Source of the DNA: Nocardia nova SH22a
GTDB lineage: Bacteria; Actinomycetota; Actinomycetes; Mycobacteriales; Mycobacteriaceae
DNA length: 64,000 nucleotides
Direction: 5' to 3'
Assembly: GCF_000523235.1 (NCBI RefSeq)
Contig: NZ_CP006850.1
Coordinates: 4,402,001-4,466,000, forward strand
Shown: positions 25,482 through 38,242 of the stretch, piece by piece
Layout: each line of letters starts with the position of its first letter
How positions within the stretch are numbered: position 1 is the first letter of the stretch
The notes under the pieces: generated by a model
The model's database searches: none
What the model was told of the DNA's origin: nothing
The model's input: the letters and a program-made list of their open reading frames with translations, nothing else
Program-made: the position numbers and the translations under genes

Positions 25482-26362
25482 GCCGAGGGCTCCTTCTCTG
25501 ATCGGGCATCGGTGGCGAGGGGCATCAAAGCGTCCACTTCGCGGCTGACGACGGGTATCGCGAAGATCCTGATGACGACGAAATAGGCGATGAGCAAGGC
25601 GAGTCCGGGCAGTTGCGAGAGCAACGATGTGCTCACGACCGCGGCTTCGGGCCGACTGTAGATGGTGACGACGCGCAGGACCGCCTCGACCAGCAGGACC
25701 ACACCCAATCCGATGGTCATCGCCTGCTCGGTGCGCCGGAACCGCAGTGACTCGCGGCCCGCGCGCTCGAATGCTTGCGCGCGAACCGGATCGCCTCCGG
25801 CCGCCGCGGCCTTACTCACCTGCATCATGAACGGGCGGGCCGCCGTGGCGGTGCCGAGTACGTAGACACCGGCGATCGCGGTATAGATGCTCGGCCGGGC
25901 GAGGATGAACCGCGGATCGGTGCCGACGGACGTGAGTACGACCGCCGCGACGCTCTCGACCAGAACCAATACGGCGAAGGCGTCGAGACGTCGCGGGCGG
26001 ACGAGCAGCGTCACTGTGACGGCGATCGTCAGCAGGATGCTGCCCACCGCGATCGACACCGCATCGGAGTGACCGGTCTCGGCCGCGGCGATCGTCACGC
26101 TCGCGCACACGATCGCGGTCACGGCGGCCGGAACGAACCCGACGATGGCGGCCTTCGAATCGCCGTCTTCGACCCGCCCGGCAACGGCTTTGGCCGCGAC
26201 GAAGAATCCACCGGCCGTCAACCGCACGCTCGTGGACAGACCGAGCGGGGCCAGTGCGGCGAAGACAACCGTCGGCACGATCAGGTCGATGAGCATATCC
26301 GCCAGGCCCGCGGCGAGCACGCGTGCTTTGACGGCGAGGGAGGCGGAAGTCGACTCGGTCAT
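25478..26362 (-). CDS. VC0807-like integral membrane protein
   Basis: A 294-residue protein with about six to seven hydrophobic segments, resembling the VC0807 family of membrane proteins. It starts MTESTSASLAVKARVLAAGL, has VRPRRLDAFAVLVLVES at about residue 115, and a charged linker (ERAGRESLRFRRTEQAMTIG) before the last helices. The function of the family is unknown. Its stop overlaps the 32-residue peptide gene. Upstream of the ATG at 26362 a further 280 bases separate it from a perfect palindrome shared with the divergent MarR gene, so it probably has a long leader and is repressed by that MarR protein. Longer in-frame starts exist but give Arg-rich, non-membrane sequence. Confidence 0.75.
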   Translation of the reverse strand: MTESTSASLAVKARVLAAGLADMLIDLIVPTVVFAALAPLGLSTSVRLTAGGFFVAAKAVAGRVEDGDSKAAIVGFVPAAVTAIVCASVTIAAAETGHSDAVSIAVGSILLTIAVTVTLLVRPRRLDAFAVLVLVESVAAVVLTSVGTDPRFILARPSIYTAIAGVYVLGTATAARPFMMQVSKAAAAGGDPVRAQAFERAGRESLRFRRTEQAMTIGLGVVLLVEAVLRVVTIYSRPEAAVVSTSLLSQLPGLALLIAYFVVIRIFAIPVVSREVDALMPLATDARSEKEPSA

Positions 26363-26688
26363 GGTCGGACCGAGTGTTGCCGAGCCGACGGGGCCGCGTC
26401 GCCTGCGCGCCGGACACGAGACGGTCGAGGATCGGGTCGAGAAGGATGCCGCGTCGCATCGGCGTTGGGACAGCGCCCTCTCGCCGCGGTGCGATACGCC
26501 GAGGCGAGATCGACGCCGAACAGGCCGACCGATGGGTTCCGCTGCTGGCGTCCGGCGTCGTCGCAGGCTGCGCGATCGTCCGGCGACAGGCAGGAGCACA
26601 GTCCGCCGAGGCCGGTTGTCGGTTTCCGCTGTATGTCCACAGAATTATCTTAGCATCCTAAGATAATTGGTCAGATAAGATTTATGGC
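26363..26688. other. intergenic region between the VC0807-like gene and MarR
   Basis: No convincing gene. A 93-codon frame on the minus strand (26359-26640) starts with GTG beside the operator and ends on the membrane gene's ATG, but its composition (Arg/Pro/Ser-rich, no motif) and lack of a ribosome site argue against it. The last 50 bases next to MarR are AT-rich and hold the palindrome at 26643-26668 and a half-site (tcagataaga) at 26671-26680. The rest is probably a long 5' leader of the membrane-protein transcript. Confidence 0.5.
26643..26668. promoter_or_regulatory. perfect palindromic operator for the divergent MarR gene
   Basis: Perfect 11-bp arms, aattatcttag and ctaagataatt, separated by catc. 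It lies 20 bases before the GTG start of the MarR gene, in the only AT-rich patch of the region. The size and symmetry fit binding by a MarR dimer that represses its own gene and the divergent membrane gene. A related half-site (tcagataaga) follows at once. Confidence 0.8.
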
Positions 26689-27168
26689 GTGAGTGACAAC
26701 GTGACCCCACCGGCGACGCCGACGGCCGGTGAACTGCTCGGGCGTGACTTCATCACCTCGGTCGTGGTGTTCCACGAGGCGGTGGGCGCCCTGCTCGGGA
26801 TCAGTGCGACCGACCGCAAGTCGCTGGATCTGATCTCCCGCGGCCCCGTCACCGCCGGTGACCTCGCCCGCTTCACGGGGCTGAGCACCGGCGCGATCAC
26901 GGGAATGATCGATCGCCTGGTCAAGGCGGGCTACGTGGAACGCCGCGCCGACCCCGCCGACCGCCGCCGGGTTCTCGTCCATCGCAGGGAGGACACCCGG
27001 CTCGACGAGGTCCTGCCTGCCGTGTTCGGACCACTCGGCGCCGACATGGCCGAGCTGAACACCCACTACACCCCCGAGCAGCTGGCCGCGATCGCCGACT
27101 ACATGGCACGAACCCGCGAAATCCTGGTCCGCCACACCCGCCGCATCAGTGACGTCGAAACCGCCTGA
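26689..27168 (+). CDS. MarR family transcriptional regulator
   Basis: A 159-residue regulator. TAGDLARFTGLSTGAITGMIDRLVKAGYVERRADPADRRRVLVH at about residues 64-107 is the winged helix, with the family's DRRR wing. The N-terminal ELLGRDFITSVVVFHEAVGALLGIS helix and the C-terminal LAAIADYMARTREILVRHTRR helix form the dimer interface. Start is GTG at 26689; an ATG five bases earlier is out of frame. The perfect palindrome at 26643-26668 covers its likely promoter, so it is presumably autoregulated and controls the divergent VC0807-like/peptide operon. The inducing ligand is unknown. Confidence 0.9.
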   Translation: MSDNVTPPATPTAGELLGRDFITSVVVFHEAVGALLGISATDRKSLDLISRGPVTAGDLARFTGLSTGAITGMIDRLVKAGYVERRADPADRRRVLVHRREDTRLDEVLPAVFGPLGADMAELNTHYTPEQLAAIADYMARTREILVRHTRRISDVETA

Positions 27169-27284
27169 CGCGTACTACATTCCGGCGCTCGGCATCGTCG
27201 TCGTACGACTCCGACGATGCCCAATTCGCAGATCGCGCGACGACCAGCACGCAGCCGCACCGATCGGTTCGCCATGATCGTTCT

Positions 27285-27824
27285 GTGGACAAACTTTTGG
27301 TGCTGGTCAACGGCCTCCCCGGCTCCGGCAAGTCGACGTTGGGCCGGTCGCTGGCCCGGACGTTGAACGCCGAGTTCTTGTCGAAGGACACCGTCAAGGA
27401 GGCACTCGCGGCCTGCCTCGGCGACGCAACCGATCTGGACGCACTCGGCGGCATCGCGATGGACACGGTCTGGGCCCTGGCACAAGCCATTCCAGGCCCC
27501 GTCGTCATCGACTCCTGGTGGTTCAAGCCACGCGACCTGCATTTCGCCCGGACCGGAATCGGGAACACCGGAGCCTCCCGCGCCGTCGAGATCTGGTGCG
27601 ACGTCCCCGCCGACACGGCAAAAGCGCGCTACGCCAACAGAAACCGCCCAGCCCTGTACCGAGACGAGAAGCGACTCGTCGAAGACTGGGACCTCTGGGC
27701 CGCGCAGGCCGCACCGCTCGAACTCACAGCCACCCTCGTCGTGGACACCACCAACCCGGTCGATTACTCACACCTCATCGACTGGATCCAGCTCACGGCC
27801 GCTCCCATCGCCGATGATCACTAG
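27285..27824 (+). CDS. P-loop kinase-like AAA family ATPase
   Basis: A 179-residue P-loop protein. The Walker A motif GLPGSGKST is at about residues 10-18, followed by FLSKDTVKEAL (the LID/substrate-binding Asp-Lys typical of small-molecule kinases such as gluconate or chloramphenicol kinases). VVIDSWWF marks the Walker B strand and RYANRNRPALYRDEKR a positively charged LID region. It is a stand-alone AAA_33-type kinase; the phosphate acceptor is not identifiable. Start is GTG with the hydrophobic strand (KLLVLVNG) beginning immediately, as expected. It is followed by the convergent aldo/keto reductase gene. Confidence 0.8.
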   Translation: MDKLLVLVNGLPGSGKSTLGRSLARTLNAEFLSKDTVKEALAACLGDATDLDALGGIAMDTVWALAQAIPGPVVIDSWWFKPRDLHFARTGIGNTGASRAVEIWCDVPADTAKARYANRNRPALYRDEKRLVEDWDLWAAQAAPLELTATLVVDTTNPVDYSHLIDWIQLTAAPIADDH

Positions 27825-27962
27825 CGGCGGGCTTACGACCGGCCTTTCGTGGCGGCCGCGGACTCGGTACAGGGGCCCAGGAAGATCTCCGATCATGCCG
27901 ACCAGTTCGCCGACCGCAACGCCGCGGCCGTTGATCATCGACGTAGAACGGTTGAGAACCGC

Positions 27963-28931
27963 TCACTCGATCCGCGCGGAGACCTCATCCAGTGCCGACT
28001 TCTCCTTCGCCGTGAGATCGAACTCGGCCGAGGCCAGCAGAGCCGGCAACTGTTCGACCGTGCGAGCGCTCGCGATAGGTGCGGCCACAGTGGCGCGGCC
28101 GCGCAGCCAGGCGATCGCCACCGTGGCCATCTCCACGTCACGGTCGGACGCGATATCCTCGACCAGCTCCACGACGGCGAGGGCCGCGCCGGAGAAGTTC
28201 CGACCCGCGAGAAGTCGGCGGATGTCCTGTCCATCGCGGATCGGTTGTCCGTCGCCGAGGTCCTTTTTCTCGCGGTACTTGCCGGTCAGAAAGCCACTGG
28301 CCAGAGCGAAATACGGCACGGCGACAATCCCCTCGTCCGCGAGCACGGGAGCGATCTCACGCTCGAACGGCTGTCTCGTCACAAGGTTGTAGTTCGGCTG
28401 GACGACAGACGGGGGCTCGTATCCTTCGCGTCGAGACACCGCCAGCCACTCCGCGATACGGGCACCGGTGTAGTTCGACAGGCCCACCGTCCGGATCTTT
28501 CCGGCCTTGCGCAGCGCATCGAACGCCCCGATGGTTTCGGCGAGTGGCGTTTCGGGGTCGTCATGGTGGGCGTAGTAGATGTCGATGTAGTCGGTTCCCA
28601 GCCGCGCCAGCGACGCCTCCAGGGCCGCAGTGACATTGGCCGGAGTCAGCCCTTTGAAGTCCGGGTGGTCACTCACTTTGGTGCCGACCACAACAGCGTC
28701 CCGGTTCTTGCGGGCGGCCAGCCACGACCCGATGATCGATTCCGATTCGCCGCCGGAATTGCCCGGCACGAACGACGAGTAACTGTCGGCGGTGTCGACG
28801 AAGTTGCCGCCGCCTGCGACATAGGCATCCAGCACTCGATGCGACTCCGCATCGTCGCTGGTCCAACCGAACGTATTGCCGCCGAGAGCAAGCGGGAACA
28901 CTTCGATGTCTGATCGGCCCAGTTGCACCAT
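27963..28931 (-). CDS. aldo/keto reductase
   Basis: A 322-residue TIM-barrel NADPH-dependent reductase of carbonyl compounds. The catalytic residues appear as Asp and Tyr in FVDTADSYSSFVPGNSGGESE, Lys in AVVVGTKVSDHP and His in DIYYAHHDDPETPL. The GLSNYTGARI and late MATVAIAWLRGR segments are typical. The start at 28931 is chosen because AGAGGAAA lies about six bases upstream; an ATG five codons earlier lacks such a site. No regulator is adjacent; it faces the P-loop kinase gene and lies 60 bases beyond the stop of the next minus-strand gene. Confidence 0.92.
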   Translation of the reverse strand: MVQLGRSDIEVFPLALGGNTFGWTSDDAESHRVLDAYVAGGGNFVDTADSYSSFVPGNSGGESESIIGSWLAARKNRDAVVVGTKVSDHPDFKGLTPANVTAALEASLARLGTDYIDIYYAHHDDPETPLAETIGAFDALRKAGKIRTVGLSNYTGARIAEWLAVSRREGYEPPSVVQPNYNLVTRQPFEREIAPVLADEGIVAVPYFALASGFLTGKYREKKDLGDGQPIRDGQDIRRLLAGRNFSGAALAVVELVEDIASDRDVEMATVAIAWLRGRATVAAPIASARTVEQLPALLASAEFDLTAKEKSALDEVSARIE

Positions 28932-28991
28932 GGACTTTCCTCTCATATATGAATCGACAAACCGTGCGCGGCAGGCGTGGGCGTGCGGTGG

Positions 28992-29447
28992 TCAGCTGCC
29001 GATGACGACGGTCTTGCGTCGCCGCTGCCACATGGCCAGCGCGACGACGAGCACGAAGACCTCTGCCGGACTGTCGAGTCCGGACAGCTCGGCCTCCGCC
29101 CCGCGGCCCACCCTACGGACCCGGCCGATACGGTCGTCGCCCTCAGCGAGTTCCAGGTTCCTGCTGCCGAAGCCGGTACGGGTCAGGCAGAACGTCCGCC
29201 CACTGGTCGCGATGCGCCGGCTCCGCAGTCCGTCGCGTCCTGCGCTGGCCACCACTCGCCCGTCCAGGGCACGCAGGCTGCAATCCCCGCCGAACGCCGA
29301 GCCCTCGAATTGGTAGATCTGCCCATCCAGGTCGAACTCGCCCCCGTGTTGCGCGGTCCGCGCGGAAACCGTCGTGACGAGGTCACCGCCGTCGAAGATT
29401 TCGTAACGGGCCGGAAAGCCGGTCGTGCGTACGCGAAGTGTCGACAT
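28992..29447 (-). CDS. hypothetical protein with C-terminal membrane segment, beside the two-component system
   Basis: A 151-residue protein I do not recognise firmly. Residues 1-115 are predicted beta-rich (LRVRTTGFPARYEIFDGGDLVTT, GQIYQFEGSAFGGDCSLRALDG, SRNLELAEGDDRIGRVRR), recalling the tubby/LURP-one type of domain. The end has a hydrophobic stretch (EVFVLVVALAMW) followed by a basic QRRRK anchor. The start is ATG at 29447, with GAGGCTCGGGA just upstream. Its promoter lies in the 71-bp block shared with the peptidase-like hydrolase gene at 34.9 kb, so it is probably controlled by the neighbouring response regulator. Confidence 0.7.
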   Translation of the reverse strand: MSTLRVRTTGFPARYEIFDGGDLVTTVSARTAQHGGEFDLDGQIYQFEGSAFGGDCSLRALDGRVVASAGRDGLRSRRIATSGRTFCLTRTGFGSRNLELAEGDDRIGRVRRVGRGAEAELSGLDSPAEVFVLVVALAMWQRRRKTVVIGS

Positions 29448-29448
29448 A

Positions 29449-29519
29449 TCCCGAGCCTCGCAGCGCCACGAAGCGCCGGATAGTAGCTCGGAGTCATCAG
29501 TTTCGATGACAGCTGTCAT
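29449..29519 (-). promoter_or_regulatory. two-component-system promoter block, copy 1
   Basis: A block nearly repeated at 35027-35097 in the same orientation; by hand count 47 of 71 bases match without gaps, more with two single-base gaps. It contains the perfect palindrome ATGACAGCTGTCAT (29506-29519), an adjoining GTCATC half-site (about 29493-29498), and on the minus strand TACTAT as a possible -10 element. Minus-strand reading leads to the hypothetical gene at 29447; on the plus strand the palindrome ends 36 bases before the histidine kinase start. The arrangement suits a LuxR-type response regulator activating both directions. Confidence 0.7.
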
Positions 29520-29555
29520 ATGTGTGATCGGGTGTCGTGGCGATAGCCTCGATCG

Positions 29556-30737
29556 GTGAGCACCGCGGCAGCCATCGACGCCGAAAACCCGGCGCTCCCC
29601 GCGGCACGCCGGCGAATGGTGATCATCTTCGTCGCGCTGACCGGAACGATCGCCGCCGGGCTGCCGATCGTGGTCCTGATGGCGGACTGGCCGGGAACCA
29701 CATTCGCAGTGCCCCTGGTGCTACTGGATGTCGGTGCACTTGCGCTGCACGCCTGGTGGTTTCGCCGTTCCCTGTGGCAGCCGAGGGAACGCCCGCCCCG
29801 GGGGTATCTCTTCCTCTCGGCGATACTGGGGACGAGCCTGCTCTGCCTCGGAATCCTCAGCAGCCCGTTCGGATCCATCTGGGCATTCGGTCCCGCCCTC
29901 CTGCTCGGCGACAGCCTCACACAACGCAAGCGTCGCACCATCATCGGCTGGGTGACCGGCGCGAGCCTGACCGCGTTCGGTATCGGCGCACTCCTGGCCC
30001 CGCAACCATCCGGCGGAGGACCGAACTGGGCCGCCGCCGCCATCGCCGCTCTCTACCTGGCCGTGCTGTGGACGGCCAGCTTCAACCGCGTCTACTGGCT
30101 GGGGTCCATGAACACCCTCGACACCTCCCGCCGAATGGCCATCGACCTCGCCACCACACGTGAACGGCTCAGGCTGGCCGACGACCTGCACGACATCCTC
30201 GGCCACGCGCTGGAAGTCGTGGCCTTCAAAAGCGAACTCGCAGGCAAACTCCTTCCGCCCGACGCCGTACAGGTACGCAATGAAATCGAGGAGGTGGCGC
30301 AGGTGGCCCGCACCGCGATGAGCGAGATACGCGCCCTCAGCCGAGCACGCCGTACCACCAGCCTGGCCGCCGAACTCGCCGGAGCCCGGGCGACACTCGA
30401 TTCCGCGGGAATCGATCTGTCGGTGACCGGCAACCCATCGCTGCTGCCGAACTCGACTCAGGACATCCTCGGGCGGGTACTGCGCGAGGCGATGACCAAT
30501 CTGCTGCGGCACGCCACGGCCAGCCGCTGCTCGGTAATCCTGCGTTATGACAGGGATATCGCGGAATTGATCGTCGTCAACGACGGCGTGCCTGCCACGA
30601 CAACCCGGCCGAGCACGGACGGCACCGGCCTGGCCGGACTGGAACGCTACCTGACTCAACGCCTCGGCCGACTGACCGCAGGCCCTGGGGAACCCGGCAC
30701 CTTCACCGTCCACGCCCAACTGCCGGTGCACTCATGA
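29556..30737 (+). CDS. sensor histidine kinase, DesK/NarX-like (HisKA_3)
   Basis: A 393-residue membrane sensor kinase. About residues 20-185 hold five to six transmembrane helices with short loops and no large extracellular domain, suggesting it senses a signal in or at the membrane. The phosphoacceptor is His212 in RLADDLHDILGH, the HisKA_3 H-box. A degenerate HATPase domain follows with EAMTNLLRHA (N-box) and GTGLAGLERYL (G-box). The stop overlaps the response-regulator start by four bases. Start is GTG at 29556, 36 bases after the palindrome of the shared promoter block. DesK-type kinases often respond to membrane fluidity or envelope stress. Confidence 0.9.
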   Translation: MSTAAAIDAENPALPAARRRMVIIFVALTGTIAAGLPIVVLMADWPGTTFAVPLVLLDVGALALHAWWFRRSLWQPRERPPRGYLFLSAILGTSLLCLGILSSPFGSIWAFGPALLLGDSLTQRKRRTIIGWVTGASLTAFGIGALLAPQPSGGGPNWAAAAIAALYLAVLWTASFNRVYWLGSMNTLDTSRRMAIDLATTRERLRLADDLHDILGHALEVVAFKSELAGKLLPPDAVQVRNEIEEVAQVARTAMSEIRALSRARRTTSLAAELAGARATLDSAGIDLSVTGNPSLLPNSTQDILGRVLREAMTNLLRHATASRCSVILRYDRDIAELIVVNDGVPATTTRPSTDGTGLAGLERYLTQRLGRLTAGPGEPGTFTVHAQLPVHS

Positions 30738-31339
30738 TCCGCGTCATCCTCGCCGAAGACGAGCACCTCACCCGCAGCGCGGTAGCCACACTGCTCGGCA
30801 TGGAGGCAGACCTGCTCATCGTCGGCCAGGCAGCCACCGGAGACGAAGCGCTGGAAGTCATCCGCATCCACCGACCCGATATCGCGGTACTCGACATCGA
30901 GATGCCCGGACTCGACGGCGCCCAAGTCGCCGAGCGGGTCGCCGCCGACCACCCCGGCACCCGCTGCGTCCTGCTCACCCGGCACGCCCGCCCCGGCGTG
31001 CTACGACGCGCCTTGGCCGCCAAGGCGATGGGGTTCGTCACCAAGAACACTCCGGCCGCCACCCTCGCCGAAGTAATTCGCAACGTGCACACCGGCGCTC
31101 GCTACATCGATCCCGAACTCGCCGCCACCGCACTCGACAACGCCGACTGCCCTCTCACCGACCGCGAACTCGACGTCCTACGCCATGTCGACAATGCAAC
31201 CACTTCCGACGAGATCGCCGCCGCCGTACACCTGTCCCCCGGCACCGTCCGCAACTACCTCTCCTCCGCCATGGGCAAACTCCAAGCTCGCAACCGCATC
31301 GAAGCCTCGGCGCGGGCTCGTGATCGCGGATGGCTGTAG
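30734..31339 (+). CDS. NarL/FixJ (LuxR-type) response regulator
   Basis: A 201-residue response regulator. The receiver domain (1 to about 120) has the acidic pair Glu8-Asp9, the phosphorylated Asp54 in VLDIEMPG, Thr in VLLTRHAR and Lys in FVTKNTP. The C-terminal GerE helix-turn-helix (about 140-198) reads LTDRELDVLRHVDNATTSDEIAAAVHLSPGTVRNYLSSAMGKLQARNR. It is coupled to the kinase by an ATGA overlap. The best candidate binding site is ATGACAGCTGTCAT in the two promoter blocks at 29449-29519 and 35027-35097, which would make the kinase operon, the hypothetical gene and the hydrolase its targets. Confidence 0.92.
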   Translation: MIRVILAEDEHLTRSAVATLLGMEADLLIVGQAATGDEALEVIRIHRPDIAVLDIEMPGLDGAQVAERVAADHPGTRCVLLTRHARPGVLRRALAAKAMGFVTKNTPAATLAEVIRNVHTGARYIDPELAATALDNADCPLTDRELDVLRHVDNATTSDEIAAAVHLSPGTVRNYLSSAMGKLQARNRIEASARARDRGWL

Positions 31340-31510
31340 CCGCTCCTCGCTCCCGGAGGCGACGGCTGACATCACGAAACCGGCATCGCCGCAAACAAAT
31401 TCGACACGCGTACAAGGGTGAAGCGAATCAGCCCGCCATCGCCGCTACGGATGTCCGCACCGGCCGGCGACCGCCTGCTCTACGGCAGACCGACTCCGAG
31501 AGGTGCTAAA

Positions 31511-31527
31511 AGCAACATTCTGTTGCT
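31511..31527. promoter_or_regulatory. candidate TetR operator upstream of the flavin monooxygenase
   Basis: Perfect inverted repeat agcaaca-ttc-tgttgct. It lies 43 bases upstream of the monooxygenase ATG, overlapping or flanking a possible -10 (TATAGT at 31527-31532). The TetR gene directly downstream of the monooxygenase is the likely binder. Confidence 0.65.
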
Positions 31528-31569
31528 ATAGTTGATTGCAGGCACACAAGGGCGAACGGAGGAGCCATC

Positions 31570-32685
31570 ATGCGAATCCTGGTCAGCGGGGCAGGGACGG
31601 CTGGATTGAGCGCAGGCATCGACCTGGCGCGCGCCGGACACGAAGTAGAGATCGTCGAGCGGGCAAACCACCTACGTGTCAACGGCTCGCCCATCGACGT
31701 GCGCGGCGCGGCCATCGAGACCGCGCGCAGCATGGGAATCCTCGACGCGGTGCACGAGCATCGGATCGCGATGACCGAGCAGACGAGGTTCGTCGACCGG
31801 TCCGGCGCGGCCGTCGCCCCCTTGGTGGGACAGGAGATCAACGAGTCCTGCGAGGACATCGAGATCCCCCGCGAAGATCTGATGAACATCCTGCTCCGGG
31901 CCCTGCCCGAACAGGTGGACCTGCGTTTCGAGGAGTCCATCGCGACGATGGCCGACGACGGGAGCCGGGTCACGGTCACCTTCGCCTCAGGCCGGGTGGC
32001 CGCCTACGACCTCGTCGTCGGCGCCGACGGAGTGCACTCGGCGGTGCGCCGGATGGTGTTCGGCCCGGAGGAGGAGTTCACCGAGCACCTCGGGGTGTAC
32101 GTCACGATCGGCGACGCGCCCGGACGAACGGATCCCGACGTCACCCGCGTGACGGAGATCCTCAACCTGCCCGGGCGCTTCGCCGGCGTGGCAGTCTACC
32201 GCGACAAGGCGCTGGGAATCTTCGAGTTCCGGTCCGAGCCGATCGACTACGACTACCACGACCTGGGCGCGCAGCAGCGCATTCTGGCCGACGCCTTCGC
32301 CGGTATCGAGGACTGGAAGGTCCCCGAGTTGGTCGAGACCGCCCGGCACGACCCCAATCTCTACTTCGACGCGATCGCCCAGATCCTCATGCCGACCTGG
32401 CACCGAGGCCGGGTCGTGCTGATCGGGGACGCCGCGCACTGCGCGACTCCGATGGCCGGGCGCGGCGTCTCGCTGGCCCTGCTCGGGGCGTGGACGCTCA
32501 CCGAGGAACTCGGTCGGCACGGTGACGACCTGACGGCGGCCTTCAGTGCCTATGAGCGGCGCCAGCGCCCGCATGCCGCGGCGGCTCAGGAGTTCGCGCG
32601 CGGCGGGGCCGACCTGATGGTTCCCGCCACCTGGGAGGCCATCGAGGCGCGCAACGCCCGGCTGCGGGCGGCCCAGCCGCTGTAA
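31570..32685 (+). CDS. FAD-dependent monooxygenase, TetX/class A hydroxylase type
   Basis: A 371-residue flavoprotein hydroxylase of the PHBH fold. RILVSGAGTAGLSAGIDLARAGHEVEIVER is the FAD-binding Rossmann motif, DLVVGADGVHSAVRR the DG motif at about residue 150, and VVLIGDAAHCATPMAGRGVSLAL the GD motif at about residue 285. Close relatives include TetX-like enzymes that hydroxylate antibiotics and enzymes of aromatic or polyketide metabolism. GGAGG is eight bases upstream of the ATG. The TetR gene follows after a single base gap, and the operator at 31511-31527 lies upstream, so the pair looks like an inducible detoxification or degradation unit. The substrate is unknown. Confidence 0.9.
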   Translation: MRILVSGAGTAGLSAGIDLARAGHEVEIVERANHLRVNGSPIDVRGAAIETARSMGILDAVHEHRIAMTEQTRFVDRSGAAVAPLVGQEINESCEDIEIPREDLMNILLRALPEQVDLRFEESIATMADDGSRVTVTFASGRVAAYDLVVGADGVHSAVRRMVFGPEEEFTEHLGVYVTIGDAPGRTDPDVTRVTEILNLPGRFAGVAVYRDKALGIFEFRSEPIDYDYHDLGAQQRILADAFAGIEDWKVPELVETARHDPNLYFDAIAQILMPTWHRGRVVLIGDAAHCATPMAGRGVSLALLGAWTLTEELGRHGDDLTAAFSAYERRQRPHAAAAQEFARGGADLMVPATWEAIEARNARLRAAQPL

Positions 32686-32686
32686 G

Positions 32687-33328
32687 GTGCCGTCCGTGAG
32701 CGACAACAGCCCCGCGCCGGAACCGGTCCGCCGCCCGGGCGGGCGCACCGCCCGGGTGCGGCGCCGGATTCTCGAGGCCGCGGCCGAGTTGATCGCCCGC
32801 GACGGGATCGGCGGGCTGCGCTACGACCAAGTCGCCGGGCTCGCCGGTGTCAACAAGACCAGCGTCTATCGCAATTGGCCTGACCGCACCACGCTGGTCT
32901 CCGACGCGCTCACCGCCTTCGGGGCCGACGCCGCACCCCTGCGAGACTCCGGCGACCTCGACGCCGACCTTGTCGACTTCCTCGAAGCCGTCGCCACCGC
33001 CACGGCGAGCCCGCAAGGCCGGGCACTGCTGAACGTGGTGGCCTCGGCTCGGGAGAACCCCGAACTGCGGGCCGTCGTCGACGAGGTGTACGACCGGCGG
33101 CTGGCGCCACTGCGAGACCGCCTGCAGACCGCGGTCGAGCGCGGCGAACTGCCCGCGATCGACACCGCTTTTCTCGGCGAAATGCTCACCGGACCCATTC
33201 ATCTGTTCATCGGCCGCGGTGCCCGCACGTTCACCCGAGCCGACGCGCACCAGGTGAGTTCGATCGTGCTCGCCGGAGTGCGCGTCACCGCTGCCGGTGG
33301 CGGCGCGCCGGGCGACGCCGAGCCTTGA
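32687..33328 (+). CDS. TetR/AcrR family regulator
   Basis: A 213-residue TetR repressor. The N-terminal helix-turn-helix reads RRILEAAAELIARDGIGGLRYDQVAGLAGVNKTSVYRNWPDRTTLVSDAL (about residues 25-75), with the expected YRNWPD recognition helix. The C-terminal domain (RDRLQTAVERGELPAIDTAFLGEMLTGPIHLFIGRG) resembles the TetR_C_11/MAE_28990-type ligand domains. It follows the monooxygenase with one base between them (GTG at 32687, or GTG at 32696) and so is co-transcribed. It probably binds agcaaca-ttc-tgttgct upstream of the operon and is released by the monooxygenase substrate. Confidence 0.9.
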   Translation: MPSVSDNSPAPEPVRRPGGRTARVRRRILEAAAELIARDGIGGLRYDQVAGLAGVNKTSVYRNWPDRTTLVSDALTAFGADAAPLRDSGDLDADLVDFLEAVATATASPQGRALLNVVASARENPELRAVVDEVYDRRLAPLRDRLQTAVERGELPAIDTAFLGEMLTGPIHLFIGRGARTFTRADAHQVSSIVLAGVRVTAAGGGAPGDAEP

Positions 33329-33342
33329 ATGCCGTCGCGGAA

Positions 33343-34869
33343 TCACACGGTGCAGCGCGCGTCGGCGGGTGGGATTTTCAGGTCGACCAGGTAGTCGGCG
33401 ACGGCGGTGTTGACGCAGGGGCTGGTACCGGCCAGGGCGATGGTGTGCTGTTCACCGTCGACGGTGAGGACGGTGCCGCCGAGGGCCCGGGCCAGGTTCA
33501 GTCCGCCCTGGTAGGGGGTGGCGGGGTCGCCGGTGACGGAGATCGTCAGCGTCTTGGGCAGGCCCTGGATTCCGGTGGCGTAGGGATAGCCGAGAGTTGG
33601 TGCGGCAGGCCAGAACTCACAGCCGTCTCGGGCTCCGTCCGGCCCCCTGCCCGGATCCGTGAACGGCGCCTCCTGGTAAATCCGCCGACGTAGGTCGGTT
33701 TCCTGTGCGGGAGTGCTGCGCTGTTCGTCCATGCAGTTGATCGCGTAGTCGGCGTCGGCGAAGTTGGGCCAGTGACCGTCCGGGCCGCGGCCGCCGAAAG
33801 CGTCGCCGAGGCGCAGCAGGGTATCACCGCGGCCGGTACCGATTTCGGTGAGACCCTTGATGATTGCGGGCCAGGCGGTGGATTCGTACAGTCCGGCGAT
33901 CACGGCACCCACCGCGTCGGCGTAGCCGAGTTGCCGGCCGCTCGCGGCCGGCAGCGGACGATCGAGCAGTGGCCGGACGATGCGCTGGAAGCTCTCGGTG
34001 GCCTTGCCCGGATCCGTACCCAGCGGGCACACGGGGCGGGTCGCGCAGTCAGCGGCCATCGTGTCGAACGCACGTTGAAATGCCGCGAACTGGGAGACAC
34101 GGCGCTCGGCGGTGCCCGCGCCGGGATCGATGGCGCCGTCGAGGACCATCGCCCGCACCCGCTGCGGGAACATCTGGGCATAGACCGCACCGAGGCGGGT
34201 GCCATAGCTCTGGCCGAGATAGCTGAGCTTCTCATCCCCCAGTGCCGCGCGCAGAATGTCCATGTCGCGGGCGGCATCGCGAGTGCCCACATGAGCAAGC
34301 ACCTCCCGGCCGCCGGAACGTCCGGCACAGCGATCGACCAGGGCCCGGGTATCGGTCGCGGTCCACCGGCCCACGGCGGATGCTGCCGGGTAGGTCGCCG
34401 TGCCGTCGTCGTTCTCGGCATCGGTGTAGCAGTGGACGGCCGGGGTGGAGGCGCCCACGCCGCGTGGGTCGAACCCGATCAGGTCGAAATGTTCGGTAAT
34501 CGGGTCCCGCGCCCAGGTTTTCGCGGCCATGGCGGCCATGCCCATTCCCGGTCCGCCCGGCCCGCCAGGGTTGAGCAGCAACGACCCGATCCGTGTACCG
34601 CGTGCGGGCACCTTCAGCAGCGCGATCTTCATGGTCCGCCCGCCCGGATCGCCGTAGTCGAGAGGCACGTCCAGGCGCGCGCACCGGAAAGCCGGATTGT
34701 CGGCGAACGCCTGCTCGTCGGTCGCGGTCGTCGCATAACCGTCACATGTTCCGAAGGCCGGCTTCTGGTCGTAGAAGTGTTGCCACCGCGGTTGGTCCGA
34801 CGAGCGGCCACAACTCGCGAGTGTCAGCACCAGCACGAAAACCGTTGCGGCGGTGGTGAAGGCTTTCAT
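33343..34869 (-). CDS. exported alpha/beta hydrolase of the tripeptidyl-aminopeptidase (S33/TAP) type, lipoprotein
   Basis: A 508-residue exported hydrolase. The signal (MKAFTTAATVFVLVLTLASC) ends in the lipobox LASC, so the mature protein is probably a lipoprotein. The alpha/beta hydrolase core has LLLNPGGPGGPG and DLIGFDPRGVGAS for the oxyanion region, the nucleophile in YLGQSYGTRLG, and a C-terminal TAP-like part with Asp in GDPATPYQGG and His in GEQHTIAL. Family members cleave N-terminal tripeptides or ester bonds. Start is ATG at 34869, with GGGAG nine to ten bases upstream. Its promoter block (35027-35097) matches the one beside the two-component system, with about 155 bases of leader between. 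Confidence 0.88.
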   Translation of the reverse strand: MKAFTTAATVFVLVLTLASCGRSSDQPRWQHFYDQKPAFGTCDGYATTATDEQAFADNPAFRCARLDVPLDYGDPGGRTMKIALLKVPARGTRIGSLLLNPGGPGGPGMGMAAMAAKTWARDPITEHFDLIGFDPRGVGASTPAVHCYTDAENDDGTATYPAASAVGRWTATDTRALVDRCAGRSGGREVLAHVGTRDAARDMDILRAALGDEKLSYLGQSYGTRLGAVYAQMFPQRVRAMVLDGAIDPGAGTAERRVSQFAAFQRAFDTMAADCATRPVCPLGTDPGKATESFQRIVRPLLDRPLPAASGRQLGYADAVGAVIAGLYESTAWPAIIKGLTEIGTGRGDTLLRLGDAFGGRGPDGHWPNFADADYAINCMDEQRSTPAQETDLRRRIYQEAPFTDPGRGPDGARDGCEFWPAAPTLGYPYATGIQGLPKTLTISVTGDPATPYQGGLNLARALGGTVLTVDGEQHTIALAGTSPCVNTAVADYLVDLKIPPADARCTV

Positions 34870-35026
34870 ATCGAAGAAACTCCCATCGCGTGTTGCGGGG
34901 ACGTGGCGCCATCCGGACGGATCGACGGACATCACCGAGCTGCCAGCGGAACGCGCTCAGGCGAGCGTCGCGGATGTGCCGGGAACCGAATCGGCTGCAG
35001 CTCAGGGGCGCCTCGGCTGTGTCACG

Positions 35027-35097
35027 TCCCAAGCCTCGCAGCACAGCGAAATCCGGAACAGTGCTGGATATCATCCAGTACCGATGACAGCTGTCAT
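35027..35097 (-). promoter_or_regulatory. two-component-system promoter block, copy 2
   Basis: A second copy of the block at 29449-29519. It contains the 16-base perfect palindrome GATGACAGCTGTCATC (35083-35098), with ATGACAGCTGTCAT at 35084-35097, and a preceding ATCATC half-site. On the minus strand CACTGT occupies the position of the first copy's TACTAT. It reads towards the exported hydrolase gene, whose ATG is about 155 bases further on. The same regulator most likely binds both copies. Confidence 0.65.
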
Positions 35098-35418
35098 CAT
35101 CTGCTTTCCCACATGCCACGCGCCTCGACGAAAGCGGCGCACTGCGAGCGCTGTCGGCGGTTTTCCGATTTCGGGCTCACCCGTCTGCGCCGGTCGTAGC
35201 CGTGTCGCCAGTCGTCTTTCACGACAATCGCGCTCAATCCGCTCCCAGATTCGCCAGGGCCTCAGCGCGGTTTCGTTCAGACCTGCCGTATCGCGACCTG
35301 CGACGCGGTGGCCGACACACTGCGCCGATGGCCAGGTAGATAGGCACAACCGCCCCGATTGAAGGCGACGACTGCGACGCGACCGAAGCGTGCTCCCGCG
35401 CCTCGATCACCATAACCT

Positions 35419-35455
35419 TCTGGCCTCCGATAAGTGAACCTTATCGGAGGCCAGA
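35419..35455. repeat. 15-bp perfect inverted repeat with 7-base spacer
   Basis: Arms tctggcctccgataa and ttatcggaggccaga, spacer gtgaacc. The flanking genes point away from it on both sides, so it cannot serve as a terminator for them. Arms plus a seven-base centre resemble the crossover site of a tyrosine recombinase or a large operator. An orphan tyrosine recombinase is encoded 4.4 kb away, but no link is shown. Confidence 0.6.
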
Positions 35456-35727
35456 TGACTCGCTGGTGCGCAAAAGCATTCCGTCGACCGCAGTTTCGTT
35501 TCGTTTTTATCAACGTAACTAAACTCCAACGAAACCCATCAAAAACTAGGCTCGGTGGTACCGGCGTACAAGAACCTGTGGTCGCCTGCCCGGACAGCGG
35601 AGTCGACGGGGACCGGAACGTGGTGGGCTCGAAACCGTTGTGCAGCGGGCGCTGTCGGGGCCGCGTCGTCTGGTGGGGCGGCCTCTCCCCCGCAACGCGC
35701 GATGCGGTGAACGGGTAAGGATGAGGG

Positions 35728-37431
35728 GTGACCGACTACGGGAATCTGCCGACGCAACCGTTGGTCGTGCTGCGGGACCTGCCCGATTACGGGAGCCTGC
35801 CGACGCAACCACTGCCGGTGCTGCCCGGGCGCGGTACGGCGGACGCGGGGGAATCCGATCGCGGGCTCGTCCGGTCCGGACGACATGTCGTCGTCGCCGG
35901 AGTGGTTGGTCGGGTGACGGGGTTCGCGCGCACGATCGCGCTCGCGGCGATTCTCGGGACCGCGGCCGTCGGCGACGCCTTCAACGGGGCGAACACGCTG
36001 CCGAACATGGTGTACGAGTTGCTGCTCGGCAGTGTTTTCGCCAGTGCGCTGCTGCCGGTGCTGACCCGGGCCCGCCATCACGACCGGTCGCGGTCCCCGA
36101 TGTTCACGCAGCGGCTGATCGTCGCGGCACTACTGGCCTCGGCGGCGCTCACCGCGGTCGCGGTGGTGTGCGCGCCACTGGCGGTGCGCGTGTTCGTGGC
36201 CGATGCCGCGCAACGCCGACTGGCGACGACCTTCGCGTATCTGCTGCTGCCGCAGATCTTCTGGTACGCCGCCACGGTGCTGCTCGGGGCCGTGCTGAAT
36301 GTGCGCGACCGTTTCGGGGCCGCCGCGTGGGCGCCGGTGGTCAACAATGTGATCGCGCTGGCGACCTGCGGCGTCTTCGTGCTGCTGCCGGGGCCGGTCA
36401 CACTGACACCCACCTCGATGACCACCGCGCAGATCCTCACCCTCGGTATCGGCACGACCGCGGGGATCGCGGGCCAGGCCGTCTGGGTCGCGGTGGCGTT
36501 GCGGCGCACCGGATTCCGCTGGAGCCGGAGGGTACGGCCCCTCCCCTATACCTGGCGTCCGGTCCGAATCGCGCTGCCCATGATGGGCTGGTTGCTCGCT
36601 TATGCCGCGATCAGTCAGATCGGTGTCGTGGTGACCACCCGGGTGGCCTTCGATCATCACGGTGTCTCGGTGTTCAACTACGCCGATCTGTTGTTCCAGG
36701 TTCCATACGGGATTCTCGCCGCGTCCTTGCTGACGGTGCTGATGCCGCGGATATCGCGGGCGGCGGCCGCGGGTGATCGCGCGGCGATGATCGCCGATCT
36801 CGGTCGCGGCGCGCGTTATCTGACGGTGGCGCTGGTGCCGATGAGTATGGGTCTCGCTCTGCTCGGTCCGGTGGTGGCCGCGGTCGTGTTCACCGGCCGG
36901 GTCGACGGTGAATCGGCCCGGCTGATCGGAGCCACGGTGGCGGCCTCGTCGTTCGGTCTCGCCCCGTACGCGGTGGTGCTGCTGCAGATGCGTATCTTCT
37001 ACGCCGACAACGACACTCGCACCCCCACCTTGATCAATGTGGTGATGGTGGCGACCAAGCTCGTCGTCGTGGCGGCCGGGGTGGCGGTGCTGCCCGCACA
37101 TCTGGTCGTGGTGGCACTCGGGGTGGCGGCGTCGATGTCGTATCTCGCGGGCGCTGTCACCGGTCATGTGCTGCTGCGCGGGCGCTACGGGCTGCTCGGG
37201 TTCTCCGCCGTCGCCGCGACGTTCACCCGCGTGATCTGGGCGACGGTCGCCGGCGGTGCGGCCTGTGCCGCGGTGATGGCCGTGGCCGCGCACACCGTCG
37301 GCGCTGCCACGCTGGGCCGGGTGCTGGTCCTGATCGTGGGCGCCGCCGCGGGCGCGGGCGGATTCCTGCTGGCCGCCCGCGCGATCGGCATCCCGGAGGT
37401 TCGTCACACCCGCACGCTGCTCACCGTCTGA
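35728..37431 (+). CDS. murJ: MurJ/MviN family lipid flippase, short form
   Basis: A 567-residue membrane protein of the MOP superfamily that moves lipid II (or a related polyprenyl carrier) across the membrane. Fourteen or so helices begin at about residue 45 with [25 protein letters not shown], then [31 protein letters not shown], the family hallmark. The N-terminus has a tandem motif, [10 protein letters not shown] and [10 protein letters not shown], before a Gly-rich linker. M. tuberculosis MviN has a pseudokinase-containing C-terminus that is absent here, so this is a short version or a paralogue. Start is GTG with a GGATGAGGG site. Candidate TQP sites in the tail could be phosphorylated, but this is inference. 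Confidence 0.88.
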
Positions 37432-37471
37432 CGCCGGTTGCCGGACGGCAGCGGCGATTGTCGTCGTTACG

Positions 37472-38242
37472 ATGGCGGCCATGGCGGAGATCACGACGGA
37501 ACGGCACGACAAGGTCGCGGTGGTGACCGTGTCGGACCCCGAGCATCGGAATGCGCTGACGCTCGAGCTGTCCGAGCAACTGGCCGCGGCGATCACGGAG
37601 GCCGAGAACGACATCGGCGTGCACGCGGTCGTGATCACCGGCGCCCCACCGGCATTCTGCGCGGGCGCAGATCTCGGTGCGCTGGGCGAGGCGGCCGAGG
37701 AGGGCCTGCGGGCCATCTACGCCGGATTCCTCGCGGTCGCGCAGTGCCGCCTGCCGACGGTGGCCGCGGTCGGTGGCGCCGCGGTGGGCGCGGGCCTGAA
37801 TCTGGCGCTGGCCGCCGACGTGCGCCTGGCCGGACCGCGTGCCCGGTTCGACGCGCGGTTCCTGCGCCTGGGCATTCATCCCGGCGGCGGGATGACGTGG
37901 ATGCTGCAGCGCATCGCCGGTCCGCAGCAGGCGGCGGCGATGACGCTGTTCGGCGAGATCCTCGACGCGGAGGCCGCGCATCGGGCGGGGCTGGTGCATC
38001 GTGTCGTGCTGGGAGATCACGACGATCTGCTGGCGGCCGCGGTGGAGTGCGCCGCCGGTGCCGGCGCGGCGCCCCGTGATCTGCTGATCACCACCAAGCG
38101 CACGATGGCGCTCACCCGGACGTTGGATTCGCATGCGGAAGCGGTCGATGCCGAGATCGCGCCTCAGGTGGTGTCGCTGGGGTCCGAGGAGTTCGGCGCG
38201 CGGCTCGCGGCGATGAAATCGCGGATCAGCTCACCGAGATGA
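37472..38242 (+). CDS. enoyl-CoA hydratase/isomerase family protein
   Basis: A 256-residue crotonase-fold protein. [24 protein letters not shown] leads to [16 protein letters not shown], the oxyanion-hole region, and [27 protein letters not shown] with [20 protein letters not shown], the catalytic-Glu region. The usual catalytic Glu positions appear as His-Pro-Gly-Gly-Gly rather than Glu, so hydratase activity is uncertain. A beta-oxidation-like role in acyl-CoA turnover is likely. ATGs at 37472 and 37481 are both possible starts; the second begins at the family's usual AEITTERHD. It may be read with the thioesterase gene downstream, after a promoter-like gap. Confidence 0.85.

Follow-up and report, generated by a model that had tools for sequence, protein, structure and literature searches.

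Two copies of a DesR-type operator in Nocardia nova point to a two-component regulon probably rewired after loss of its exporter

Two copies of a 14-base palindrome lie 5.6 kb apart in a 64,000-nucleotide stretch of the Nocardia nova SH22a chromosome (contig NZ_CP006850.1, positions 4,402,001 to 4,466,000; hereafter the window, on which all coordinates are counted), one of them beside genes for a DesK-like sensor kinase and a DesR-like response regulator. The locus is very probably a rewired local regulon of the DesK/DesR-YvfTU type, from which the original target, an ATP-binding cassette (ABC) exporter, has gone while its operator has been kept twice. An earlier note on this DNA had singled out two palindrome-bearing 71-bp promoter blocks (29449-29519 and 35027-35097, minus strand) and suggested a small two-component regulon. 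The blocks are real, and the regulon gains strong support from the company that the palindrome keeps with the kinase-regulator pair in 32 of 38 loci and from its match to the DesR motif.

The palindrome, ATGACAGCTGTCAT, is matched exactly at 29506-29519 (copy 1) and 35084-35097 (copy 2); the window holds no further site at two or fewer mismatches, and none of 100 shuffles yielded two copies. The earlier note had named many unrelated copies across the genome as the finding that would count against its proposal, and the search of the genome (8,348,532 bases, one contig) returned exact ATGACAGCTGTCAT at these two positions only. Eight further genomic sites carry two mismatches, which touch the arms in all eight, and ATGACANNTGTCAT occurs twice in the whole genome. 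Both window copies match exactly the motif ATGACA-N2-TGTCAT given for DesR of Bacillus subtilis in PMC11034029, which also lists the pneumococcal RR11 motif as ATGACATTTGTCAT-N7-AGTGACA. An inverted plus a direct repeat is described for DesR-type promoters of Bacillus and its relatives in PMC7726353. The spacing of the operator also resembles that of DosR, a likeness given no weight here. No report of DesR-type operators in actinomycetes was found in the open-access literature searched.

Association of the palindrome with this kinase-regulator pair extends well beyond N. nova. A kinase search over genomes gave 38 loci. The 32 best of them (23 from Pseudonocardia, one from a Pseudonocardiales bin, three from Kibdelosporangium, two from Sciscionella and one each from Amycolatopsis, Nocardia and Rhodococcus) have a palindrome with at most one arm mismatch in the 800 bp that precede the kinase match. 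The closest kinase relatives (76-78%) belong to two Sciscionella, Amycolatopsis anabasis and Nocardia vermiculata, all four of which keep the palindrome, with a single central change in one. The six weakest loci (L082-L087, which match part of the kinase at 24-39%) have no site in the 800 bp upstream, and L084 has one 2.4 kb upstream. Over 31 of the loci, 31 sites at one arm mismatch or fewer fall in the upstream windows versus two in the other 469.5 kb, and both outlying sites are second operators; L080 was checked apart from this count. Across 32 whole genomes (31 of relatives with the pair, plus that of the window) the full pattern was matched 36 times, and 31 of these matches fall at the two-component locus, versus a single match to a reversed control pattern. 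In three genomes no full match occurs, and the locus has a site whose arms carry one mismatch. L080 and L082-L087 stand outside the gene scan and this whole-genome count. A search for the kinase in 397 genomes of the order at E 1e-70 returned two matches (its own and one at 46%) in a sample that missed known close relatives, and the regulator has one orthologue-like match (84%, G139) in 148 genomes of the genus, the others reaching 53% or less.

The kinase gene (29556-30737, plus strand; HisKA_3 match at E 3.2e-13) encodes a protein with five to six hydrophobic segments in residues 22-176 and, judged by hydropathy alone, no large outside domain. Its end is overlapped by the start of the gene for a NarL/FixJ-family response regulator (30734-31339, plus strand) with Response_reg and GerE domains. 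Among solved structures this regulator matches full-length DesR best (4LDZ, E 3e-44, residues 1-200); ChrA is a more distant solved relative (E 1.1e-18). Regulators that accompany the site have an almost invariant recognition-helix stretch, LSPGTVRNYLSSAM. That the palindrome is the operator of this regulator is supported by its travelling with the kinase-regulator pair and its identity with the DesR motif, and the adjacent DesR-like protein very likely binds it.

Similar operators also accompany a paralogous operon of ABC ATPase, permease, kinase and regulator genes, which was fetched from 20 places in Nocardia. The ATPase was matched in 19, and in all 19 a similar palindrome (two arm mismatches at most) lies 98-197 bp upstream of it. 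The regulators are about 50% identical, and those of the paralogous operons carry the stretch LSPGTTRNYLS[SA]AM. The genome of the window has such an operon near 7.21 Mb (L133, G000:C1:7205000-7220000), where the site is poorer, with two mismatches in the arms, and precedes the ATPase match by about 170 bp.

Relatives of the locus show what the window appears to have lost. Their operator separates the kinase-regulator genes from a divergent operon of ABC ATPase and permease, and 29 of 30 loci (L050-L079) yielded matches to both exporter genes, the exception being N. vermiculata (L053). No ABC match better than E 0.2 occurs in window positions 26001-38000, and the genome has no permease orthologue, only a 31% paralogue. 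The gene that fills the exporter's place encodes a 151-residue protein (28992-29447, minus strand; the first gene under copy 1); in both Sciscionella and in A. anabasis (L050-L052) the small gene is downstream of the exporter genes. The Sciscionella exporter operon goes on to include genes for a SnoaL-like protein, the small protein and a TAP-like hydrolase, and that of A. anabasis goes on to include SnoaL-like pieces (one gene matching in two pieces, L052 5324-5711), the small gene and an aldo/keto reductase gene as beside the window's small gene. Both the window and N. vermiculata lack the exporter, and their small gene stands immediately after the promoter.

The small protein is assigned a tubby-like fold, a 12-stranded barrel with a hydrophobic C-terminal helix, by a second aligner restricted to Foldseek's own candidates. 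By itself Foldseek returned nothing at E 0.001 or better, and a search of 394 genomes of the class found the protein's own copy only.

Copy 1 was described in the earlier note as standing beside the kinase gene, 36 bases before it. The distance is correct, from the palindrome end to the GTG at 29556, and the position is only part of the picture, as the block is bidirectional and also faces the tubby-fold gene, which the note had missed. For the kinase, a -10-like TAGCCT lies at 29544-29549 (plus strand), from which we infer a leaderless kinase mRNA; leaderless genes are common in actinomycetes. For the small gene there is a -10-like TACTAT at 29485-29480 on the minus strand, with a CTAC-like stretch near the same place in most relatives. 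A direct-repeat half-site, TGAC, occupies 29496-29493 on the minus strand, exactly 9 bases beyond the palindrome, a spacing equal to that of the published RR11 motif (N7 + 2). TGAY at 9 bases is present in 8 of 35 sites (copy 1, L050, L051, L053, L068, L078, L079 and L081), and 18 of the remaining 27 have the spaced version TGTCA-N10-TGAY instead. Copy 1 is a homologue of the exporter's promoter (z scores of 5.2 to 9.7), its counterparts being the exporter-side promoter in each of L050-L052 and the same place in L053.

The two blocks themselves are 47/71 identical without gaps versus 37/71 for the runner-up 71-mer to copy 1 in the window, and their alignment outside the palindrome (33/57) exceeds all 500 shuffles. 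By this comparison they are old, diverged homologues and not fresh copies. Copy 2 most likely descends from the exporter's promoter, because its likeness to exporter-side promoters (z 10.8 for L052, 9.3 for L050) exceeds that to copy 1 (z 5.7 to 6.5) and it seems to retain exporter-like first codons. These codons, at 35007-35025 on the minus strand, are probably what remains of an ABC ATPase gene that was lost: they agree with the ATPase start of A. anabasis at 16 of 19 bases, a match unique among 127,964 window positions, and a stop ends the frame after seven codons. A BLASTN search with 34800-35730 against the other loci (the window's own five excluded) aligned only the promoter block and at most 15 bases beyond it (E 0.01), and no trace of an exporter or second kinase beyond the first codons was seen near copy 2 at E below 0.1. 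By sequence comparison, both blocks most likely derive, with divergence, from the promoter of an ABC-exporter operon that has been lost.

Downstream of copy 2 lies a gene for an exported TAP-like alpha/beta hydrolase (33343-34869, minus strand, ATG at 34869) with a lipobox LASC, recognised by eye, and a GQSYG motif. Copy 2 probably controls this gene. Exported hydrolases recur beside operators of this kind: both Sciscionella have one within the exporter operon, and Pseudonocardia lacus and P. humida have a serine hydrolase gene (S33/S15/S9-like, with a lipobox-like start by eye) between kinase and regulator. In these two Pseudonocardia a second operator lies between hydrolase and regulator, 82 bases from the hydrolase ATG, and the first operator of P. 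humida is 83 bases from the start of the ATPase match. Their second operator and hydrolase probably go back to one event: the hydrolases share about 84% identity, and none of the other loci tested matched them. The possibility that one ancestral operon had been split in two was dropped; the Sciscionella TAP hydrolase is only about 30% identical to that of the window, so the two are not simple orthologues. In one further Nocardia (G067; L119 6315-8496), a 69% relative of the TAP hydrolase directly follows the regulator of the paralogous exporter operon.

Several observations weigh against a rewired regulon with two working operators. The 32 palindrome-bearing loci are not independent, 23 being from Pseudonocardia, and L066 and L067 share one promoter sequence. 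Of 149 other Nocardia genomes, 7 carry the exact 14-mer, one copy apiece and in different contexts, and the paralogue L174 has a perfect site with a different helix (LSEGTVRNHLSSAI). At copy 2 the half-site is degenerate (TGAT) and shifted by one base, and the -10-like element is the weaker CACTGT; a half-site and a -10-like element in each block, as the earlier note had it, hold in full for copy 1 only. Copy 2 has no recognisable kinase-side promoter. A. anabasis gave the best of three ATPase starts compared with the relic, the others agreeing at 11 and 12 of 19 bases (Sciscionella L050 at 11/19 ungapped), and 156 bases with a short open reading frame separate the relic's start codon (35025) from the hydrolase ATG. 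No palindrome was found within 1.5 kb at 15 relatives of the TAP hydrolase (53-74%) in other Nocardia, which means that control by copy 2 would be private to this lineage.

Part of this evidence suits an alternative that we regard as unlikely, though it deserves real weight: copy 2 could be a silent relic of the lost exporter promoter, with copy 1 as the sole working operator and the hydrolase transcribed from a promoter of its own. The weaker -10-like element and half-site, the exporter-like codons that stop so early and the 15 Nocardia relatives without a palindrome would all fit such a relic. The palindrome of copy 2, however, has stayed letter-perfect while its surroundings diverged to 33/57, which suggests selection on the palindrome, and the exported hydrolases within the exporter unit of two Sciscionella and under the second operator of two Pseudonocardia also speak against a silent relic. 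A working copy 2 within a rewired regulon is the reading that we prefer.

It is very improbable that the palindrome belongs to another binder, such as the TetR-family protein encoded at 32687-33328. Perfect short palindromes are typical of TetR operators, and the exact 14-mer adjoins TetR-like genes, named from sequence alone, in two other Nocardia genomes (L011, L012). But the TetR gene of the window was matched in only 2 of 30 loci (L051, L052), all 30 of which have the site upstream of the kinase, and the site equals the motif reported for DesR. The earlier note had also considered a duplication; a recently duplicated or mobile 5.6-kb segment, for which the same orientation of the blocks at both ends would speak, is scarcely credible: the blocks are only 47/71 identical, a repeat search of 29400-35200 found no longer repeat joining the flanks, and copy 2 is closer to the exporter-side promoters of other genera than to copy 1.

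The rewired regulon could operate as follows. The kinase has no sizeable outside domain; it probably senses the state of the membrane and phosphorylates the regulator. A regulator dimer would then bind ATGACA-N2-TGTCAT together with the half-site and activate promoters in which the palindrome covers the -35 region, its centre falling near -40 on the minus side and about -43 on the kinase side if the predicted transcription starts are right. In the relatives, one site would drive both the divergent ABC exporter operon and the kinase-regulator operon. After presumed loss of the exporter genes in this lineage, copy 1 may have become the promoter of the formerly downstream tubby-fold gene while still serving the kinase, and copy 2, with the exporter's first codons, may have come to precede the TAP-like hydrolase gene, which it probably places in the regulon. 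The scheme predicts binding, activation, the stimulus, the course of events and an active copy 2 from what was observed: the conservation and genomic rarity of the site, the gene order and the likeness of copy 2 to an exporter start.

Three known systems frame this proposal. DesK/DesR of B. subtilis, whose target is the membrane desaturase gene des, shares with the window a regulator alike over its full length, a kinase without a large outside domain and the operator ATGACA-N2-TGTCAT, with a direct-repeat half-site that is clear at copy 1 and degenerate at copy 2. The N. nova locus differs in its actinomycete host, in the small gene divergent from the kinase, in its two operators 5.6 kb apart and in the lack of a desaturase among the nine neighbouring proteins scanned. 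YvfTU with YvfRS and pneumococcal TCS11 pair a DesKR-like system with an ABC transporter, as the relatives of the window do with an ABC ATPase and permease under the same motif; in the window the exporter is lost, and a tubby-fold protein and, probably, an exported hydrolase stand in its place. ChrSA/HrtBA of Corynebacterium, with a heme exporter divergent to the two-component system (PMC3353115), offers the same divergent arrangement in an actinomycete, and ChrA is among the regulator's solved relatives, although it is more distant than DesR and the window lacks the exporter.

The aldo/keto reductase gene (27963-28931, minus strand) adjoins the small gene in A. anabasis too (76%). A flavin adenine dinucleotide (FAD) monooxygenase gene and the TetR regulator gene (together 31570-33328, plus strand) also follow the regulator in Sciscionella marina, where the monooxygenase is in fragments (L051 9826-10169). 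The monooxygenase of the window (31570-32685) scores 216.9 bits against the NCBIfam tetracycline-destructase subfamily, versus a cut-off of 550, with two other families higher, and is probably a monooxygenase other than a tetracycline destructase. Elsewhere in the genus, four genomes (L013, L014, L016 and L017, position 1501 each) have the exact palindrome upstream of a single helix-turn-helix-like gene family (MAPxSPxVARWELSxRTRKR..., likewise named from its sequence); for three of them the regulator matches are on contigs other than that of the palindrome.

This locus provides a predicted operator, regulator and set of targets for an actinomycete two-component family, with about one site per genome, and carries a Bacillus operator into another phylum nearly letter for letter. 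It also suggests how a two-component system can persist, through promoter rewiring, once its main target has gone. More tentatively, at a confidence somewhat short of even, the DesR-type operator could be a portable switch in actinomycetes, the promoter being copied before exported serine hydrolases after loss of the exporter or of the operon order, separately in this Nocardia and in Pseudonocardia. Here a sensor of membrane state would control a tubby-fold, possibly lipid-binding, membrane protein and a hydrolase instead of an exporter, and the recurrence of exported hydrolases hints at what such membrane sensors may defend against or process.

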